This document shows positions 5,699 through 34,076 of a stretch of DNA of 64,000 bases, piece by piece. Both the position numbers and the translations under genes were made by a program. The DNA is taken from the NCBI GenBank assembly GCA_004172935.1, contig SDZD01000021.1:1-64000 (forward strand), read 5' to 3'. This stretch comes from a bacterium. GTDB lineage: Bacteria; Armatimonadota; Abditibacteriia; Abditibacteriales; Abditibacteriaceae. The notes beneath the pieces were generated by a model, which ran no database searches, was not told the origin of the DNA, and saw only the letters and a program-made list of their open reading frames with translations. Each line of letters begins with the position of its first letter. Position 1 is the first letter of the stretch.

Positions 5699-6862
5699 TT
5701 ATTTTCTTTCGCGCATGGCCGCAATGAGCACTTTTGCGACTTCTGGACGAGTGAACTCCGCTGGCGGAATCTGTCCATCCATCAACATTTGGCGCACTTT
5801 GGTTCCGCTCAGCGCGATTTTCTGAGCGCCTTCGGGGATGGTTTTGTCTGTTCCCATCGTGCCTACTGTGGGCGAATAGTAGGCGTGGTCGAAGGTCATC
5901 GGCACGATCCCCAACTCCGCTGGCTCGAACTCATCGAAGATGTACTGCGCATCGAAAGTTCCGTAGTAGTTACCAACACCAGCATGGTCGCGCCCGACCA
6001 CGAAATGAGTACAGCCGTAATTCTTGCGAATCAGGGCATGGAAAATTGCCTCACGTGGCCCTGCAAAGCGGCTTGCGGCGGGCAAAACTGCCAGCATCAC
6101 GCGGTCTTGTGGGTAATAGTTTTCTAGCAGTACGCGATAGCACTCCATCCGAACGGGAGCGGGAATTTCGTCTTTTTCCGTGGCCGAATAGATGGGGTGA
6201 ACCAGCAAACCATCCATAGTTTCGAGCGCCGACTTAGTGATGTATTCGTGGGCGCGATGGATGGGGTTGCGGGTGTGAAAGCCAACAATCTTGCGCCAAC
6301 CGCGCTGAGCGAAGGCGCGCCGCACCTGAAGAGGTGTCAGGCGCAAATCGGTGAAGGCTTTGTCGCCACGATCTTGCAGAACGCGGATGCGCCCGCCGAG
6401 GTGAATGTCGCCGCGCCGAAACAGGTTGCGCACGCCGGGGTGGGCATCTTCCAACGTGCGATACACTAGTCGTGCCTCGCGCTCTTTGTCGTAGCGATAG
6501 ATTTCTTCGAGTTCCAGAACGGCCAGAATATTCTCGAATTTATCGACCAGTGCGATTTCCTGATCAATGCTTAGCCCTTCCGCTTCGTCCTCGCTGACGG
6601 CGAGGGTGACGGGAATCGTCCAGGGCAACCCACTCGAAAGGCGTTGGTTGATGATGCAGTTCTCGTAGTCGGCGCGCCCCATGAAGCCTTCCAACGGCGA
6701 AAATGCGCCATTAGCAATGAGTTCGAGGTCGGACAGGCGTCGGTCGGCGAGCGCAATTTGCGTGAGTGATTTGGCGCGCTCACGCAGTTCATCGGCTTCG
6801 GCGCCGGATACAAAGCGGTTGATGAGGCGCCCACCGTGCGGCGCGATTTCGGTTCGGAACAT
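5699..6862 (-). CDS. sat: Sulfate adenylyltransferase (ATP sulfurylase)
   Basis: Catalyses ATP + sulfate to APS + pyrophosphate, the first step of sulfate assimilation. From the ATG at MFRTEIAPHGG the product is 387 residues, normal for the single-subunit Sat family; a longer in-frame reading exists but its first 37 residues look non-coding. Diagnostic motifs are FHTRNPIHRAHEY (nucleotide-binding HxxH), VGRDHAGVGNYYG and ALSGTKVRQML. It is the second gene of a minus-strand operon (Rrf2 regulator, sat, JAMM peptidase, cysteine synthase). No APS kinase domain is fused and no APS/PAPS reductase gene is in the window. Confidence 0.95.
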   Translation of the reverse strand: MFRTEIAPHGGRLINRFVSGAEADELRERAKSLTQIALADRRLSDLELIANGAFSPLEGFMGRADYENCIINQRLSSGLPWTIPVTLAVSEDEAEGLSIDQEIALVDKFENILAVLELEEIYRYDKEREARLVYRTLEDAHPGVRNLFRRGDIHLGGRIRVLQDRGDKAFTDLRLTPLQVRRAFAQRGWRKIVGFHTRNPIHRAHEYITKSALETMDGLLVHPIYSATEKDEIPAPVRMECYRVLLENYYPQDRVMLAVLPAASRFAGPREAIFHALIRKNYGCTHFVVGRDHAGVGNYYGTFDAQYIFDEFEPAELGIVPMTFDHAYYSPTVGTMGTDKTIPEGAQKIALSGTKVRQMLMDGQIPPAEFTRPEVAKVLIAAMRERK

Positions 6863-6964
6863 GGAAGTGGCGCAAAGGTTAGCGCAAGCGGGGGGCCATG
6901 TGGAGCGAGATATTAGCTCTTGGCTATCAGCTTTAGGTATTTTCTGGTGATTGCCATCATTTAA

Positions 6965-7001
6965 TTTGGGCAACTCGCTTCAGTTCGAGTGAGTGCCCAA
7001 A
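6965..7001. other. Stem-loop between the Rrf2 gene and sat
   Basis: TTTGGGCA (6965-6972) pairs with 6994-7001, and ACTCG (6973-6977) with CGAGT (6986-6990), leaving a 3-nt bulge. It follows the regulator stop codon and precedes sat; without a T-tract it may be an attenuating or processing structure. Function not established. Confidence 0.4.
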
Positions 7002-7027
7002 CGCTGACAGCCAGCAGCTAATGGCTT

Positions 7028-7528
7028 CTAACTCAACAATGGAATTGGTAAGATGGAGCGTTCGCGATAGGTGCGAATTGGCACACCGAACTGCTCCTCC
7101 TGGCGGCGCAATAGTTCGGCGAGGGTCAGTTTTTGCAAAACCGCTTCAACGGCCAGTTGCAATTCGCGCCATACCTCTTGAACGGCACAAGAACCGCTCG
7201 CCCCACAGCTCGAATTTTTTGTGGAGGAAATCGAACTTTTAGTCCCATCACTCAAACAAATCATCGGCTCGAAGGGGCCTTCCAATGCCCGCAGCGCTTC
7301 CAGAACTGTGATGTCGGCGGGTTCCTTGGCGAGCTGATAGCCGCCTTGTGCCCCGCGTTTGGCTTTGACCAAACCGCTCGATTTCAGAGCGGGTACGATC
7401 TGCTCCAAATAATCGAGAGAGATGTTCTGCCGCGTCGCGATGTCGCGCAACGACAGACCTTTGCCGGGTTCAAGTCCCAGTTCCATGAGGGCGCGCAGCC
7501 CATATTCTCCGCGCGTCGAAATTTTCAT
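7028..7528 (-). CDS. Rrf2-family transcriptional regulator (IscR/CymR-like)
   Basis: A 166-residue DNA-binding protein. The N-terminus MKISTRGEYGLRALMEL and the winged-helix region SLRDIATRQNISLDYLEQI...GLVKAKRGAQGGYQLAK are classic Rrf2. Three cysteines follow in the region where IscR binds an Fe-S cluster, but the spacing here is C-x16-C-x5-C, longer than the usual compact arrangement. The ATG at 7528 is chosen over a far longer in-frame reading that merely runs antisense through clpS and rsmG. Heading the sat/cysteine synthase operon, it is probably an autoregulated sensor of sulfur or Fe-S status, as CymR is in Bacillus. Confidence 0.9.
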   Translation of the reverse strand: MKISTRGEYGLRALMELGLEPGKGLSLRDIATRQNISLDYLEQIVPALKSSGLVKAKRGAQGGYQLAKEPADITVLEALRALEGPFEPMICLSDGTKSSISSTKNSSCGASGSCAVQEVWRELQLAVEAVLQKLTLAELLRRQEEQFGVPIRTYRERSILPIPLLS

Positions 7529-7597
7529 AATGCCCAAGAAGGAACGGCCCACACCATAAATTCGTTCCAATTGCCGCTTTAAAACAGCATTTATTCG

Positions 7598-7924
7598 ATG
7601 ATTACTCGCATTATTCCTATTCTCCAGTCCCCAGAGCGCCAAGAAGAAGGTGATGTACTCACCGTTGTAAAGCCCGATGAGCCTGGTTCTGGTGGCACCA
7701 ATTACCGCGTCATTTTGTACAACGATGATGTTCACACCGTGGACGAGGTCATCGTGCAGCTCATGAAGGCAACTGAGTGCGATTTGGAGCGGGCCGTAAA
7801 TATTACTCTTGAAGTAGACAACAAAGGACGCGCTGTGTGTTTTCGTGGCGAACGCGCCAAATGTCACAAAGTGACGCGCGTGTTGCGCGAAATCAATTTG
7901 CAGTGCGAAGTGGACTGCGACTAA
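7598..7924 (+). CDS. clpS: ClpS adaptor protein
   Basis: A 108-residue adaptor that hands N-degron substrates to ClpAP/ClpCP proteases. The core YRVILYNDDVHTVDEVI and VDNKGRAVC align with the family after a disordered N-terminal tail of about 30 residues. The Asn-Asp pair that holds the substrate amino group is present, but by eye the conserved histidine of the VHxxG motif is Asp here (EVDNKG), and the gate methionine after the NDD motif is replaced. Substrate choice may therefore differ from the classic Leu/Phe/Tyr/Trp set. It is followed 13 nt later by rsmG in the same direction. Confidence 0.86.
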   Translation: MITRIIPILQSPERQEEGDVLTVVKPDEPGSGGTNYRVILYNDDVHTVDEVIVQLMKATECDLERAVNITLEVDNKGRAVCFRGERAKCHKVTRVLREINLQCEVDCD

Positions 7925-7937
7925 GCCAGAATCCGAT

Positions 7938-8606
7938 ATGAATCCCGAACTAGAAACCCGTTTGCGTGCGCTTGTCGCCCATTTGCTCGAAGAAAACCAA
8001 AAATTCAATCTGACAGGCATCAAAGACCCCAACGATGCCTGGACAAAGCATGTCTTGGACTCGCTCGAAGGCCTGGATACCGAACTGTTCGATGAAAGCC
8101 AGTCTGTAGTCGATGTCGGAACCGGAGCGGGCTTCCCCGGCCTTGTGTTGGCCTTGGCTCGTCCGCAACTCAGCGTCTCGTTTTTGGAAGCGACCCGCAA
8201 AAAATGCACGTTCATCGAGGCAACGGCGGCCAAATTTGAAATCAAGCGCGCCCGCATCATCAACGAACGCGCCGAAGATGCCGGGCAAAGCGACCGTTAC
8301 CGCGCCTCCTTCGATGTCGCCACCGCACGCGCAGTCGGCTCGTTCGCCGAAGTTGCCGAGCTTTGTTTGCCGCTCGTTCGTGTTGGCGGTAGCGTGGCAT
8401 TATGGCGTGGCGAAAACGCCGAAGCCGAAGCACAAAACGCCGAGGAAGCCCTCGACGACCTCGGTGGATTTTTGCGCGATGTGCGCCCTTATGAATTGCC
8501 GGGACTCCCGACGCGCTACCACATGGTAACCATCGAGAAAGTCAACGATACGCCGCGCGATTTCCCTCGTCGTTCGGGCATTCCCAAACAAAAGCCCCTC
8601 GCCTAG
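7938..8606 (+). CDS. rsmG: 16S rRNA (guanine-N7) methyltransferase RsmG
   Basis: Class I SAM-dependent methyltransferase that modifies G527 of 16S rRNA. The 222-residue protein has ENQKFNLTGIKDPNDAWTKH near the N-terminus, the SAM-binding VVDVGTGAGFPGLVLA, and RAVGSFAEVAELCLPLV, all typical of RsmG (GidB). It lies 13 nt after clpS and is likely cotranscribed with it. Its stop codon overlaps that of the convergent GH26 gene by 4 nt, so no separate terminator fits between them. Confidence 0.95.
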   Translation: MNPELETRLRALVAHLLEENQKFNLTGIKDPNDAWTKHVLDSLEGLDTELFDESQSVVDVGTGAGFPGLVLALARPQLSVSFLEATRKKCTFIEATAAKFEIKRARIINERAEDAGQSDRYRASFDVATARAVGSFAEVAELCLPLVRVGGSVALWRGENAEAEAQNAEEALDDLGGFLRDVRPYELPGLPTRYHMVTIEKVNDTPRDFPRRSGIPKQKPLA

Positions 8607-28506: not shown

Positions 28507-29565
28507 CTATAGTTTCCAGTCGATGGCCTCGCGCCCATTGCGTTCGAGGGCTGCATTGATTTGCGTGAATGGCTCGGAGCCGAAAAAGCCCACATGTGCC
28601 GACAGCGGTGACGGGTGAGCTGATTTGACGATAGTGTGCTTGCTCGTGTCGATGAACTTTTCTTTCTTTTGGGCGTAAGCACCCCACAACACGAATACGA
28701 CGCCTTCTTCCTTGTCCGAAATCGCTTTAATCACTGCATCGGTGAATTTCTCCCAGCCCTTCGATTTATGCGAGTTGGGTTCGCTGCGGCGCACCGTCAA
28801 GACAGCATTGAGTAGTAGCACTCCCTGTTTGGCCCACGGCATTAGATAGCCGGTTTTGGGCATAGGAAGCCCTAACTCTTCGCTCATTTCGAGGTAGATA
28901 TTGTGGAGCGAAGGAGGAACTGTGACTCCAGGTTGAACCGAGAACGCCATGCCATGCGCTTGCTTTGGGCCATGATAGGGGTCTTGCCCCAAGATGAGCA
29001 CTTTCACTTCATCGGGGGCAACAGTGGCGAGAGCCGCGAACTCCTGGCCCGATGGTGGATAAACCGTGTGATTTTGCCGCTGTTCTTCGACGAACTCAAC
29101 CAATTTCGGCCAATAGGCTTTTTGGGTTTCGTCTTCCAGAAGTGGGCGCCACGGAATCGGGATTTCGAGGGGCACGATAGTTTCGTTCGATGGGCCGGAG
29201 GTGCTGTTGTTTTCTGCTTCTACTTTATCCGCGAAGGCGGGTTTGGGGATTTCATCATTCGTGACCCACGCCGGAGGGGAGTCGCGGAATACCGAGGCAT
29301 CGTTTGCGCGCAAAACGCCAAGAGCCAGAGAATGTTTGCAGGGGCGCTGGCGCGAGGGGCAGGAGCAGCGAAAAGAGAAATCGTCGACACCGACGCGCGT
29401 ATGATAGGTCTCGCCTTTAGAACCTTTGAGTTCGCCCCATACCACTTCGCCCTCGTCACCATCATAGGCACCGACATGTTCCCATTTCTCGCGCTTGGCG
29501 AGCGCGAGGGCATTTTTTGAGGAGGCTTCGTTGGGGGCGAAAGAAAGGATTTTGTCCTGAGTCAT
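28507..29565 (-). CDS. SWIM zinc finger fused to family-1 uracil-DNA glycosylase
   Basis: A 352-residue fusion. Residues 1-90 hold a SWIM zinc finger with FRCSCPSRQRPCKHSLAL, ligands Cys67, Cys69, Cys76, His78. A polar linker (91-130) leads to a full UNG domain: the water-activating Asp195 in GQDPYHG, KQGVLLLNAVLTV, and His317 in SAHPSPLSAH. UNG removes uracil from DNA formed by cytosine deamination. A standard bacterial UNG is about 220-230 residues and lacks the SWIM part, so the finger probably adds DNA or protein contacts. One uninterrupted reading frame, no sign of frameshift. Confidence 0.93.
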   Translation of the reverse strand: MTQDKILSFAPNEASSKNALALAKREKWEHVGAYDGDEGEVVWGELKGSKGETYHTRVGVDDFSFRCSCPSRQRPCKHSLALGVLRANDASVFRDSPPAWVTNDEIPKPAFADKVEAENNSTSGPSNETIVPLEIPIPWRPLLEDETQKAYWPKLVEFVEEQRQNHTVYPPSGQEFAALATVAPDEVKVLILGQDPYHGPKQAHGMAFSVQPGVTVPPSLHNIYLEMSEELGLPMPKTGYLMPWAKQGVLLLNAVLTVRRSEPNSHKSKGWEKFTDAVIKAISDKEEGVVFVLWGAYAQKKEKFIDTSKHTIVKSAHPSPLSAHVGFFGSEPFTQINAALERNGREAIDWKL

Positions 29566-31635: not shown

Positions 31636-32127
31636 CTACACAACAGCCGCTTTTTCCAGTTGCTTCGACCACTTCCAGCATAGCCATAGTGGGGGGAAAC
31701 CAACGACACCAAAGGCACAGTCGATGATGGTCCAGCCAATTGGGATGCTGCGTATTGGCCCCATGATGAAAGCCAGAGGGAGTACGCATACACAGCAAAT
31801 CATCGCCCATTCGAGAATCCAACGATTGCGGACCGGGTCGCGGAGCGGCCCGATAAAGGCGATAGCGATCATCAGGTGCGCGAATGCCAACCAGTCGTAG
31901 CCGTAGGCCAAAAAGGGGAATTTTGTGTCTGTTTCAACAAGGGCATTACGCACACGGAATATCCATTCGTTCAGCGCGGGGATTTGAAAGGTTGCGTTGG
32001 CTAACACACCGGACAGCCATTTGAGTTCGGCTGTGAGTGGGAACGCGGTGCTTCCACTCAGTACCAAGCCGATGATAAAGCCGCACAACAAAATCCGGTA
32101 GCGAACGAGCAGGGGTATGTTCTTCAT
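31636..32127 (-). CDS. Four-helix integral membrane protein, unknown function
   Basis: About 163 residues with four predicted transmembrane segments (near RILLCGFIIGLVLSG, YGYDWLAFAHLMIAIAFIG, ILEWAMICCVCVLPLAFI and IIDCAFGVVGFPPLWLCW). I do not recognise the family. The ATG at MKNIPLLVRY is chosen, as the ten codons before it look non-membrane and unlike a start. It is divergent from the RNA ligase gene. Confidence 0.7.
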   Translation of the reverse strand: MKNIPLLVRYRILLCGFIIGLVLSGSTAFPLTAELKWLSGVLANATFQIPALNEWIFRVRNALVETDTKFPFLAYGYDWLAFAHLMIAIAFIGPLRDPVRNRWILEWAMICCVCVLPLAFIMGPIRSIPIGWTIIDCAFGVVGFPPLWLCWKWSKQLEKAAVV

Positions 32128-32201
32128 AAAACAGATTTTCCCGCTTTGCTGTTCCAATACTGCACACTCAAGTGCTTCTATTCAAGGGGTTTTAGAAATA
32201 A

Positions 32202-32879
32202 ATGAACGTAACCGAACCCAGCGTGAAATATCCACGCACCCTCCACCTCCCCTGGAGCGATACCATCGGCGATGATGGCGATCACGTCCTCGAATCACTG
32301 CATGGTTTTCTGGGGCAGGAAGTTGTCGTTACTGAAAAACTCGATGGCGAAAATACGACTCTGTATCGAACCCATTTGCACGCGCGTTCGCTTGATTCCG
32401 GCCATCATCCGTCGAGGGGCTGGATTAAGAATTTTCACGCACGATTGGCGCCACATATTTCGTCCGGTATTCGTATCAACGGCGAGAGCATGTTCGCTTT
32501 GCACTCAATTTTTTATGAGTCGTTGCCATCGTACTTTCTGGTTTTTGGCATCTGGCGCGGCGATGTTTTGCTTGGGTGGGACGAAACCGCCCAGCTGTGC
32601 GCTGAATTGGAAGAGTTGAGTGGGGAGATTTTGCCTGTGGTGCCAGTGCTTTATCGTGGCGTCTGGAATGAAAAGACCGTTCGCGCGCTTTATCCGCGCG
32701 AATCGCAGTTCGGGCCGACCAGTGAAGGCTATGTTGTGCGGTTGGCCCACGCGATTCCGCGCGATGAGTGGAACCGGAGCATCGCTAAATATGTGCGCCC
32801 TCGCCATGTTCAAACTGGGCCTCATTGGATGCTGAAACCTGTGGAGAAAAATGGACTCCGTCCCTCTGAAATGGCGTGA
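32202..32879 (+). CDS. RNA ligase (Rnl2-like nucleotidyltransferase)
   Basis: ATP-dependent RNA ligase, 225 residues. Motif I is EKLDGENTT with the adenylated Lys46, followed by GESMFALHSI, FLVFGIWRG (motif III area), SEGYVVR with Glu175 (motif IV) and AKYVR with Lys196 (motif V). It is a compact catalytic domain without the extra C-terminal domain of T4 Rnl2. It overlaps the next gene, a PIN nuclease, by 29 nt. RlaP and KptA elsewhere in the window suggest an RNA-repair role. Confidence 0.9.
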   Translation: MNVTEPSVKYPRTLHLPWSDTIGDDGDHVLESLHGFLGQEVVVTEKLDGENTTLYRTHLHARSLDSGHHPSRGWIKNFHARLAPHISSGIRINGESMFALHSIFYESLPSYFLVFGIWRGDVLLGWDETAQLCAELEELSGEILPVVPVLYRGVWNEKTVRALYPRESQFGPTSEGYVVRLAHAIPRDEWNRSIAKYVRPRHVQTGPHWMLKPVEKNGLRPSEMA

Positions 32880-33306
32880 TCTGCGTGGTGGGCGCATTTA
32901 TGTTGACACCAATGCGTGGATTTATGCGCGTGATATGGAAGCGAAATGGGAGGAGTTACGGTGCTTCTTTGACTTCGCCCACGCTGGCGCCTGGAAGTTG
33001 GTGACAAGCGAACTAACTTTGGCTGAGACGTTGGTATGGCCCATACAAAACCGTGATCGGCGTGCCCAGAGCGAGTTTCAAGAGGCGTTGCAAAACGCCT
33101 CTCATCTCGTCGTTATCCCTGTATCGCGGCCTATTCTCATTGAGGCGGCAACTTTGAAGGCTACGCGCGCCCTCGAACTGCCTGATGCTATCCATGCTGC
33201 CACTGCGAAATTATCGCGTTGCTCGTATTTTCTTACGGGTGATGAGGAGTTAGCGCGCGCCGTTCATTTGCCTCATTTGCGCACAAGCGACATCGCTATT
33301 CCGTGA
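32851..33306 (+). CDS. PIN-domain ribonuclease (VapC-like)
   Basis: A 151-residue PIN protein with the four acidic active-site residues: Asp19 in YVDTNAWIYA, Glu59 in LTLAETLVW, Asp112 in LPDAIHAATA and Asp131 in LTGDEEL. Such proteins are metal-dependent ribonucleases, many being VapC toxins. No antitoxin gene lies upstream; instead it overlaps the RNA ligase reading frame by 29 nt and has a GGAG ribosome binding site within that gene. It converges on the SGNH gene 8 nt away. Confidence 0.86.
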   Translation: MDSVPLKWRDLRGGRIYVDTNAWIYARDMEAKWEELRCFFDFAHAGAWKLVTSELTLAETLVWPIQNRDRRAQSEFQEALQNASHLVVIPVSRPILIEAATLKATRALELPDAIHAATAKLSRCSYFLTGDEELARAVHLPHLRTSDIAIP

Positions 33307-33314
33307 AGCCGCGA

Positions 33315-34076
33315 TTATTTAGGAGCTGGCTCTGGCAGACGCTTAACTCCAGCGCTATCGGCCAGGGCCAGAATCTGTGGGCGGACAATTCCTACCCAGA
33401 CTTTGTATCCATCGGCATTAAGGTGGAGCTTATCTTTGCGTAGCAAGTCGGCCTGTGGTTGACCGTCAGCTCCGAGTAGTCCCGCATGAGAGTCGATGTA
33501 GGCTAATTTGTGTGTTGGCGAGTTGGTGTCGCGGATGTATTTTTCGATCAGGCTATTGACCTTCAGAATCTTTTCTTCCTGCTCCCAACGAGCGAGGCTG
33601 GGGTTAATGCTGATGAAGGCGAGGCTCGTGCTGGGGAGCGCCTTGTGTACTTTATCGGCGAAGGCTTGAAAATCCTTCAATACCCGTTCGGGCGATTTGC
33701 CCGCGTTGAGGTCGTTGCCGCCCGCGTAGAAAACGATGAGTTTGGGTTTGTACGGGGTTACGATGCGGTCGGCGTAGCGCACGCTGTCTTCGATTTGCGA
33801 ACCGCCAAAACCACGATTGATGACGGGGAGTTCGGGGAAGTCCTGTGCGACTGACGTCCAGTAGCGGATGCTCGAACTGCCGATGAATAGCACTGCTTCG
33901 GTTGGCGGAAAGGCTTTCTTATCGGCTTCTTCGAACGCGGCGATTTCGGAGGCGAAGGGCAGGGGCTTTTGTGCCTCCACTGCGATGGCGCCTTCTAGGG
34001 GCGTGGCATGGGCGCAGGAACTGGTGACTGGCAGTAGCGCTATCAGGCCATAGAGGGCGATGTATATGCGTTTCAT
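33315..34076 (-). CDS. Secreted SGNH/GDSL-type hydrolase
   Basis: A 253-residue exported esterase-type hydrolase. Signal peptide to about residue 25; a SSC around residue 21 gives a weak lipobox. Family blocks: LFIGSSSIRYW (nucleophile Ser), GFGGS (Gly), YAGGNDLNAGKS (Asn) and DKLHLNADGY (Asp-His pair). Such enzymes deacylate sugars or lipids. Substrate unknown. Confidence 0.88.
   Translation of the reverse strand: MKRIYIALYGLIALLPVTSSCAHATPLEGAIAVEAQKPLPFASEIAAFEEADKKAFPPTEAVLFIGSSSIRYWTSVAQDFPELPVINRGFGGSQIEDSVRYADRIVTPYKPKLIVFYAGGNDLNAGKSPERVLKDFQAFADKVHKALPSTSLAFISINPSLARWEQEEKILKVNSLIEKYIRDTNSPTHKLAYIDSHAGLLGADGQPQADLLRKDKLHLNADGYKVWVGIVRPQILALADSAGVKRLPEPAPK

Follow-up and report, generated by a model that had tools for sequence, protein, structure and literature searches.

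A predicted RNA ligase gene overlapping a VapC-type PIN nuclease gene in one Abditibacteriaceae genome

We analysed a window of 64,000 nt (contig SDZD01000021.1, assembly GCA_004172935.1, from a bacterium of the Abditibacteriaceae), in which the gene of a predicted ATP-dependent RNA ligase overlaps that of a predicted VapC-type PIN-domain nuclease. As far as sequence comparison reaches, the pair appears in one genome only among those surveyed, and is to be taken as a one-off and not as a proven cut-and-repair system. The explanation we favour, to which we give about an even chance, is that the two genes form a lineage-specific unit in which a mobile RNA-repair ligase would have become joined to, and be co-translated with, an antitoxin-less VapC-type PIN protein. 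A dedicated functional partnership between the two proteins is possible, without conservation in its support.

Structure of the ligase–PIN locus

Both genes are real. They are open reading frames on the same strand, each starting with ATG, and each is complete to its natural ends, the ligase retaining the conserved C-terminus of its family (N217) and the PIN protein beginning where its family begins. The features of the locus are as follows.

32202–32879, + strand: predicted ATP-dependent RNA ligase of 225 aa, nucleotidyltransferase domain only, of the DRB0100 / phage RNA-ligase type (PF09414, PHROG, motifs, AlphaFold)
32851–33306, + strand: predicted VapC-type PIN-domain nuclease of 151 aa, starting within the ligase gene (PF01850; D19, E59, D112, D131)
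32851–32879, + strand: 29-nt overlap of the ligase 3' end and the PIN 5' end, with the PIN ATG lying in the conserved ligase codons K-N-G (from the sequence)
32843–32846, + strand: GGAG, a Shine-Dalgarno-like element 4 nt upstream of the PIN ATG and within ligase codons, its role suggested by its position
31636–32157, strand opposite to the pair: flanking gene, 173-aa hypothetical protein
33315–34076, strand opposite to the pair: flanking gene, GDSL hydrolase

An earlier note on this DNA had described the 29-nt overlap and held all four acidic residues of the PIN protein and ligase motifs I, III, IV and V to be intact; the reading-frame coordinates bear out the former and our alignments the latter. 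An overlap of this kind is by itself an ordinary arrangement in bacteria. Because the flanking genes lie on the opposite strand, the pair looks like an isolated bicistron that would be co-transcribed. A consensus search found no sigma-70-type promoter, and PADLOC returned no match to a known defence system. The GC and GC3 of the pair are only slightly below those of most neighbours, and this comparison was uninformative as to a recent foreign origin.

The ligase and its relatives

The ligase matches the Pfam RNA_ligase profile PF09414 over positions 2–171 of 171 (E = 6e-28; 98.6 bits against a cut-off of 27) and the PHROG family "RNA ligase" (phrog_24030, E = 1.8e-53). Its nucleotidyltransferase residues are invariant in the alignments, namely K46-x-D48-G49 of motif I, G94-E95 of motif III, E175-G176/R180 of motif IV and K196-V198 of motif V. 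When the AlphaFold model (pLDDT 91) was searched with Foldseek, the top PDB matches were Naegleria RNA ligase, RNA editing ligase 1 and T4 Rnl2 with E-values of about 1e-6 to 5e-5. Hits to most DNA ligases were weaker, and TM-scores were moderate, at about 0.5; the modelled fold is thus nearer to RNA ligases than to DNA ligases. Domain and motif matches class the protein as a predicted ATP-dependent RNA ligase of the PF09414 / DRB0100 type.

Many bacteria, as well as phages, plasmids and viral contigs, carry relatives with about 45–55% identity. Confirmed stretches numbered 505 in genome contigs and 358 in viral contigs; we examined the best 80 of the former and 80 of the latter. Within the phylum, matches are present in just 9 of 291 genomes, and the one other genome of the genus that was compared has none. 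The window ligase stands on a long branch of the tree, among viral or phage and scattered bacterial ligases and with no well-supported sister. One same-phylum relative (locus L010, genome G075, about 6850–8157) is encoded in a 432-aa frame with an N-terminal HNH-like region; HNH-Rnl2 fusions are known from jumbo phages (PMC7824862).

The company that these ligases keep differs between bacteria and viruses. Of the 80 bacterial genome loci (the best 80 of 505), 74 have an end-healing HD/polynucleotide-kinase gene in the vicinity of the ligase, against one of the 80 viral loci studied. No HD-phosphatase/polynucleotide kinase adjoins the ligase within the window, which rules out a bacterial HD-Pnk/ligase RNA-repair operon, and a search for HD-Pnk elsewhere in the host genome (92% complete) gave only a weak, partial AAA match. 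The window ligase resembles the stand-alone Rnl2-superfamily ligases of jumbo phages (Caulobacter phages, XacN1; 45–48% identity), and, as at nearly all viral loci, it has no neighbouring kinase; unlike it, the jumbo-phage ligases have no adjoining PIN gene.

The relatives also include the ligase of a Deinococcus radiodurans plasmid operon consisting of a ligase, a TIGR02452 protein and an AAA ATPase, which we identified as DRB0100, the first gene of DRB0100-0099-0098 (PMC1997131, PMC11833690). The two ligases share about 47% identity, a single adenylation domain and the first position in an overlapping operon (PMC1997131, PMC11833690), K40 of DRB0100 corresponding to the catalytic K46 of the window ligase. 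The loci differ in the partners of the ligase: the DRB0098-0100 operon supplies a PARG-type macro protein together with an HD-phosphatase/kinase, the window a PIN nuclease and no kinase.

The PIN nuclease and its absent antitoxin

The PIN protein matches PF01850 over profile positions 1–117 of 120 (E = 4e-17). The alignment shows no variation at D19, E59 and D112 and next to none at D131, and this domain with its four acidic residues marks the protein as a predicted VapC-type nuclease. A structure prediction from the single sequence reached a pLDDT of 35 and the model was left unused. Relatives of the PIN protein were found neither in phages nor in viral contigs.

At 31 of the 41 loci of PIN homologues in the phylum, an antitoxin-like gene of 77–128 aa ends at or overlaps the PIN start, and its product has a C-terminal tail like EERxSWDR or ELRxEWD (e.g. 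EERDSWDR, ELRSEWD). At the N-terminal end these partners are unlike one another; one matches MazE/AbrB (E = 4e-13), and another gives a weak RHH match. In type II systems, antitoxins that share one toxin family typically differ in their N-terminal part. Loci L024, L025, L030, L214, L218, L223 and similar ones carry an antitoxin-like family of about 80 aa upstream of VapC-like PIN genes, with the consensus ALRxxTxVLPGxRIEV...EERxAWxR; the members tested have no Pfam match.

The window PIN is thus homologous to VapC-like proteins whose genes lie behind small antitoxin genes and overlap them, as in VapBC type II modules, and differs from these in being preceded by an RNA ligase gene and no antitoxin gene. 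This excludes membership of a VapBC module, and it confirms, from the Pfam matches and the 41 loci, what the earlier note had read from the arrangement, namely a PIN gene in the position of a VapC with an RNA ligase as its upstream partner. That note had also allowed for an antitoxin-like gene lying elsewhere. Just upstream of the window PIN, the other frames hold no antitoxin-like reading frame, and a search of the host genome (92% complete) for relatives of the commonest antitoxin type found none.

Since the ligase gene resembles an antitoxin gene in its position and overlap, the ligase protein or its C-terminus might bind and block the PIN protein directly, as an antitoxin does. We consider this highly improbable, as the ligase C-terminus is ordinary for its family, with N217 conserved, and has no E-E-R-x-x-W antitoxin tail.

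The closest PIN gene within the genus raises a different prospect. This homologue (locus L023, genome G001, about 1414–1908; 44% identity) is solitary and has no antitoxin gene; its frame offers no ATG, GTG or TTG start ahead of the first catalytic Asp and looks 5'-truncated, so that it is probably, judging by its frame, a decaying gene. The window PIN could likewise be a decaying leftover toxin of little activity, retained by chance behind the ligase, and its substitutions relative to the subfamily, R66→Q and R103→K, would be in keeping with this. Its frame is, however, full-length and has all four acidic residues, and we regard such decay as improbable.

Conservation and genomic setting

The earlier note envisaged a nuclease–ligase pair and suggested looking for conserved adjacency; the comparison does not support a conserved pair. 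No PIN gene of the window's family was found beside the ligase at about 175 other loci in genomes, phages, plasmids and viral contigs, in a search of flanks of 1.5 to 4 kb with a PIN profile of one VapC-like subfamily; the same search of a later ligase set found none at 28 loci, about 22 of them new. When 88 downstream neighbours of ligase genes were scanned against all of Pfam, a PIN domain was present only in that of the window. Conversely, an RNA ligase gene lies beside none of the PIN homologues (0/41 loci). Nor does the adjacency recur in close relatives, as the same-genus genome has no ligase and the nearest PIN homologue stands alone with its first catalytic Asp seemingly lost.

The genes folB, folK and panD are syntenic with those of the two nearest genomes, one of the same genus and one of the same family. 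In neither genome did we find the genes from 31636 onward next to folB-folK-panD, which places the ligase–PIN pair at a break in synteny, and the neighbourhood of the pair is not kept even within the genus (one other genome).

We therefore picture the favoured lineage-specific unit as a joining of two genes of mobile or conflict type that had been separate, namely a stand-alone ligase of the DRB0100 family (phage, plasmid and bacterial) and a VapC-type PIN RNase that would have lost the antitoxin gene formerly beside it. The two proteins would probably be translated from one mRNA, assuming co-transcription, with ribosomes entering for the PIN protein at a site within the ligase gene, as the overlap and the Shine-Dalgarno-like element suggest. 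Going by their families, the ligase would seal RNA breaks with 5'-phosphate and 3'-hydroxyl ends in general, and the PIN protein would cleave structured RNA as VapC toxins do.

Several considerations speak against a joining by mere chance. That both active sites are intact, in an overlapping pair set between opposite-strand genes, suggests that the unit has been maintained. Harm is to be expected from a VapC-type RNase that is active and has no antitoxin, and this speaks for the ligase counteracting it in some way. Conservation within the genus was, moreover, judged from one other genome, and the host genome is 92% complete. If the joining was nonetheless a matter of chance, the locus shows how a toxin gene can persist behind a repair gene without an antitoxin.

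Repair and maturation as possible roles of the pair

The counteracting role could be one of repair, the PIN protein cutting tRNA or rRNA so that 5'-phosphate and 3'-hydroxyl ends result, which the ligase made alongside it would reseal directly and without a kinase, in place of a protein antitoxin. The ligase does occupy the exact position usual for the antitoxin gene. It is the general view that PIN-fold nucleases produce 5'-phosphate/3'-hydroxyl ends, and the host genome, which yielded neither an antitoxin relative nor a clear HD-kinase, suits a nuclease whose products require no end healing. Such ends, 5'-P and 3'-OH, are those that ATP-dependent RNA ligases require (PMC7824862). The end chemistry of VapC is, however, disputed: its products are reported to carry 5'-OH (PMC6459853), and ends of that kind could not be sealed by this ligase alone. 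The closest family member to have been assayed, DRB0100, takes AMP from ATP and forms the adduct, yet showed no joining of DNA or RNA in vitro (PMC1997131). As the pair is also not conserved, we think repair by the ligase unlikely. Were it to undo the cuts of the PIN protein, repair rather than binding would neutralise the toxin, and the locus would offer a simple test of the idea, published but so far untested, of a cooperation between PIN nucleases and RNA ligases (HARP-Rnl3).

An association of PIN proteins with RNA ligases has already been published for other subfamilies. HARP, a protein-only RNase P, is a PIN-fold nuclease, and 127 of the 164 bacterial genomes that have both it and an Rnl3 ligase show the two co-localised (PMC12153264). 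A toxin–antitoxin reading, with an RNA ligase as the antitoxin, has been considered, and for Thermococcus kodakarensis at least it was thought improbable (PMC12153264). The window pair is similar in that the gene of a PIN-fold nuclease lies near that of an ATP-dependent RNA ligase (PMC12153264). It differs in that HARP belongs to PIN_5, its ligase to TIGR01209/PF18330, and their genes are rarely in tandem, whereas the window combines PF01850 with PF09414 in tandem and overlapping. Membership of both families was ruled out, the PIN protein matching, at E<=1, only PF01850 and, below its own cut-off, PIN_12, and the ligase matching neither TIGR01209 nor PF18330; the pair would accordingly be a new variant of the PIN–RNA ligase theme, if it is functional at all.

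By analogy with what has been proposed for HARP and Rnl3, the pair might also serve in RNA maturation or circularisation, the PIN protein trimming or cutting a precursor RNA and the ligase joining the product. The two activities would be the same, but the families are not, the PIN protein matching PF01850 where HARP is PIN_5 and the ligase falling outside the Rnl3 model TIGR01209. With neither a conserved pair nor a candidate substrate, we hold a maturation module to be quite unlikely.

A further gene of the window

A separate observation concerns a gene at 28507–29565 on the − strand. Its 352-aa product combines a uracil-DNA glycosylase domain in the C-terminal part (PF03167, 1.4e-17) with an N-terminal stretch resembling a SWIM-type zinc finger (PF04434, E = 0.0017, just under the cut-off), and is possibly a SWIM-UDG fusion.
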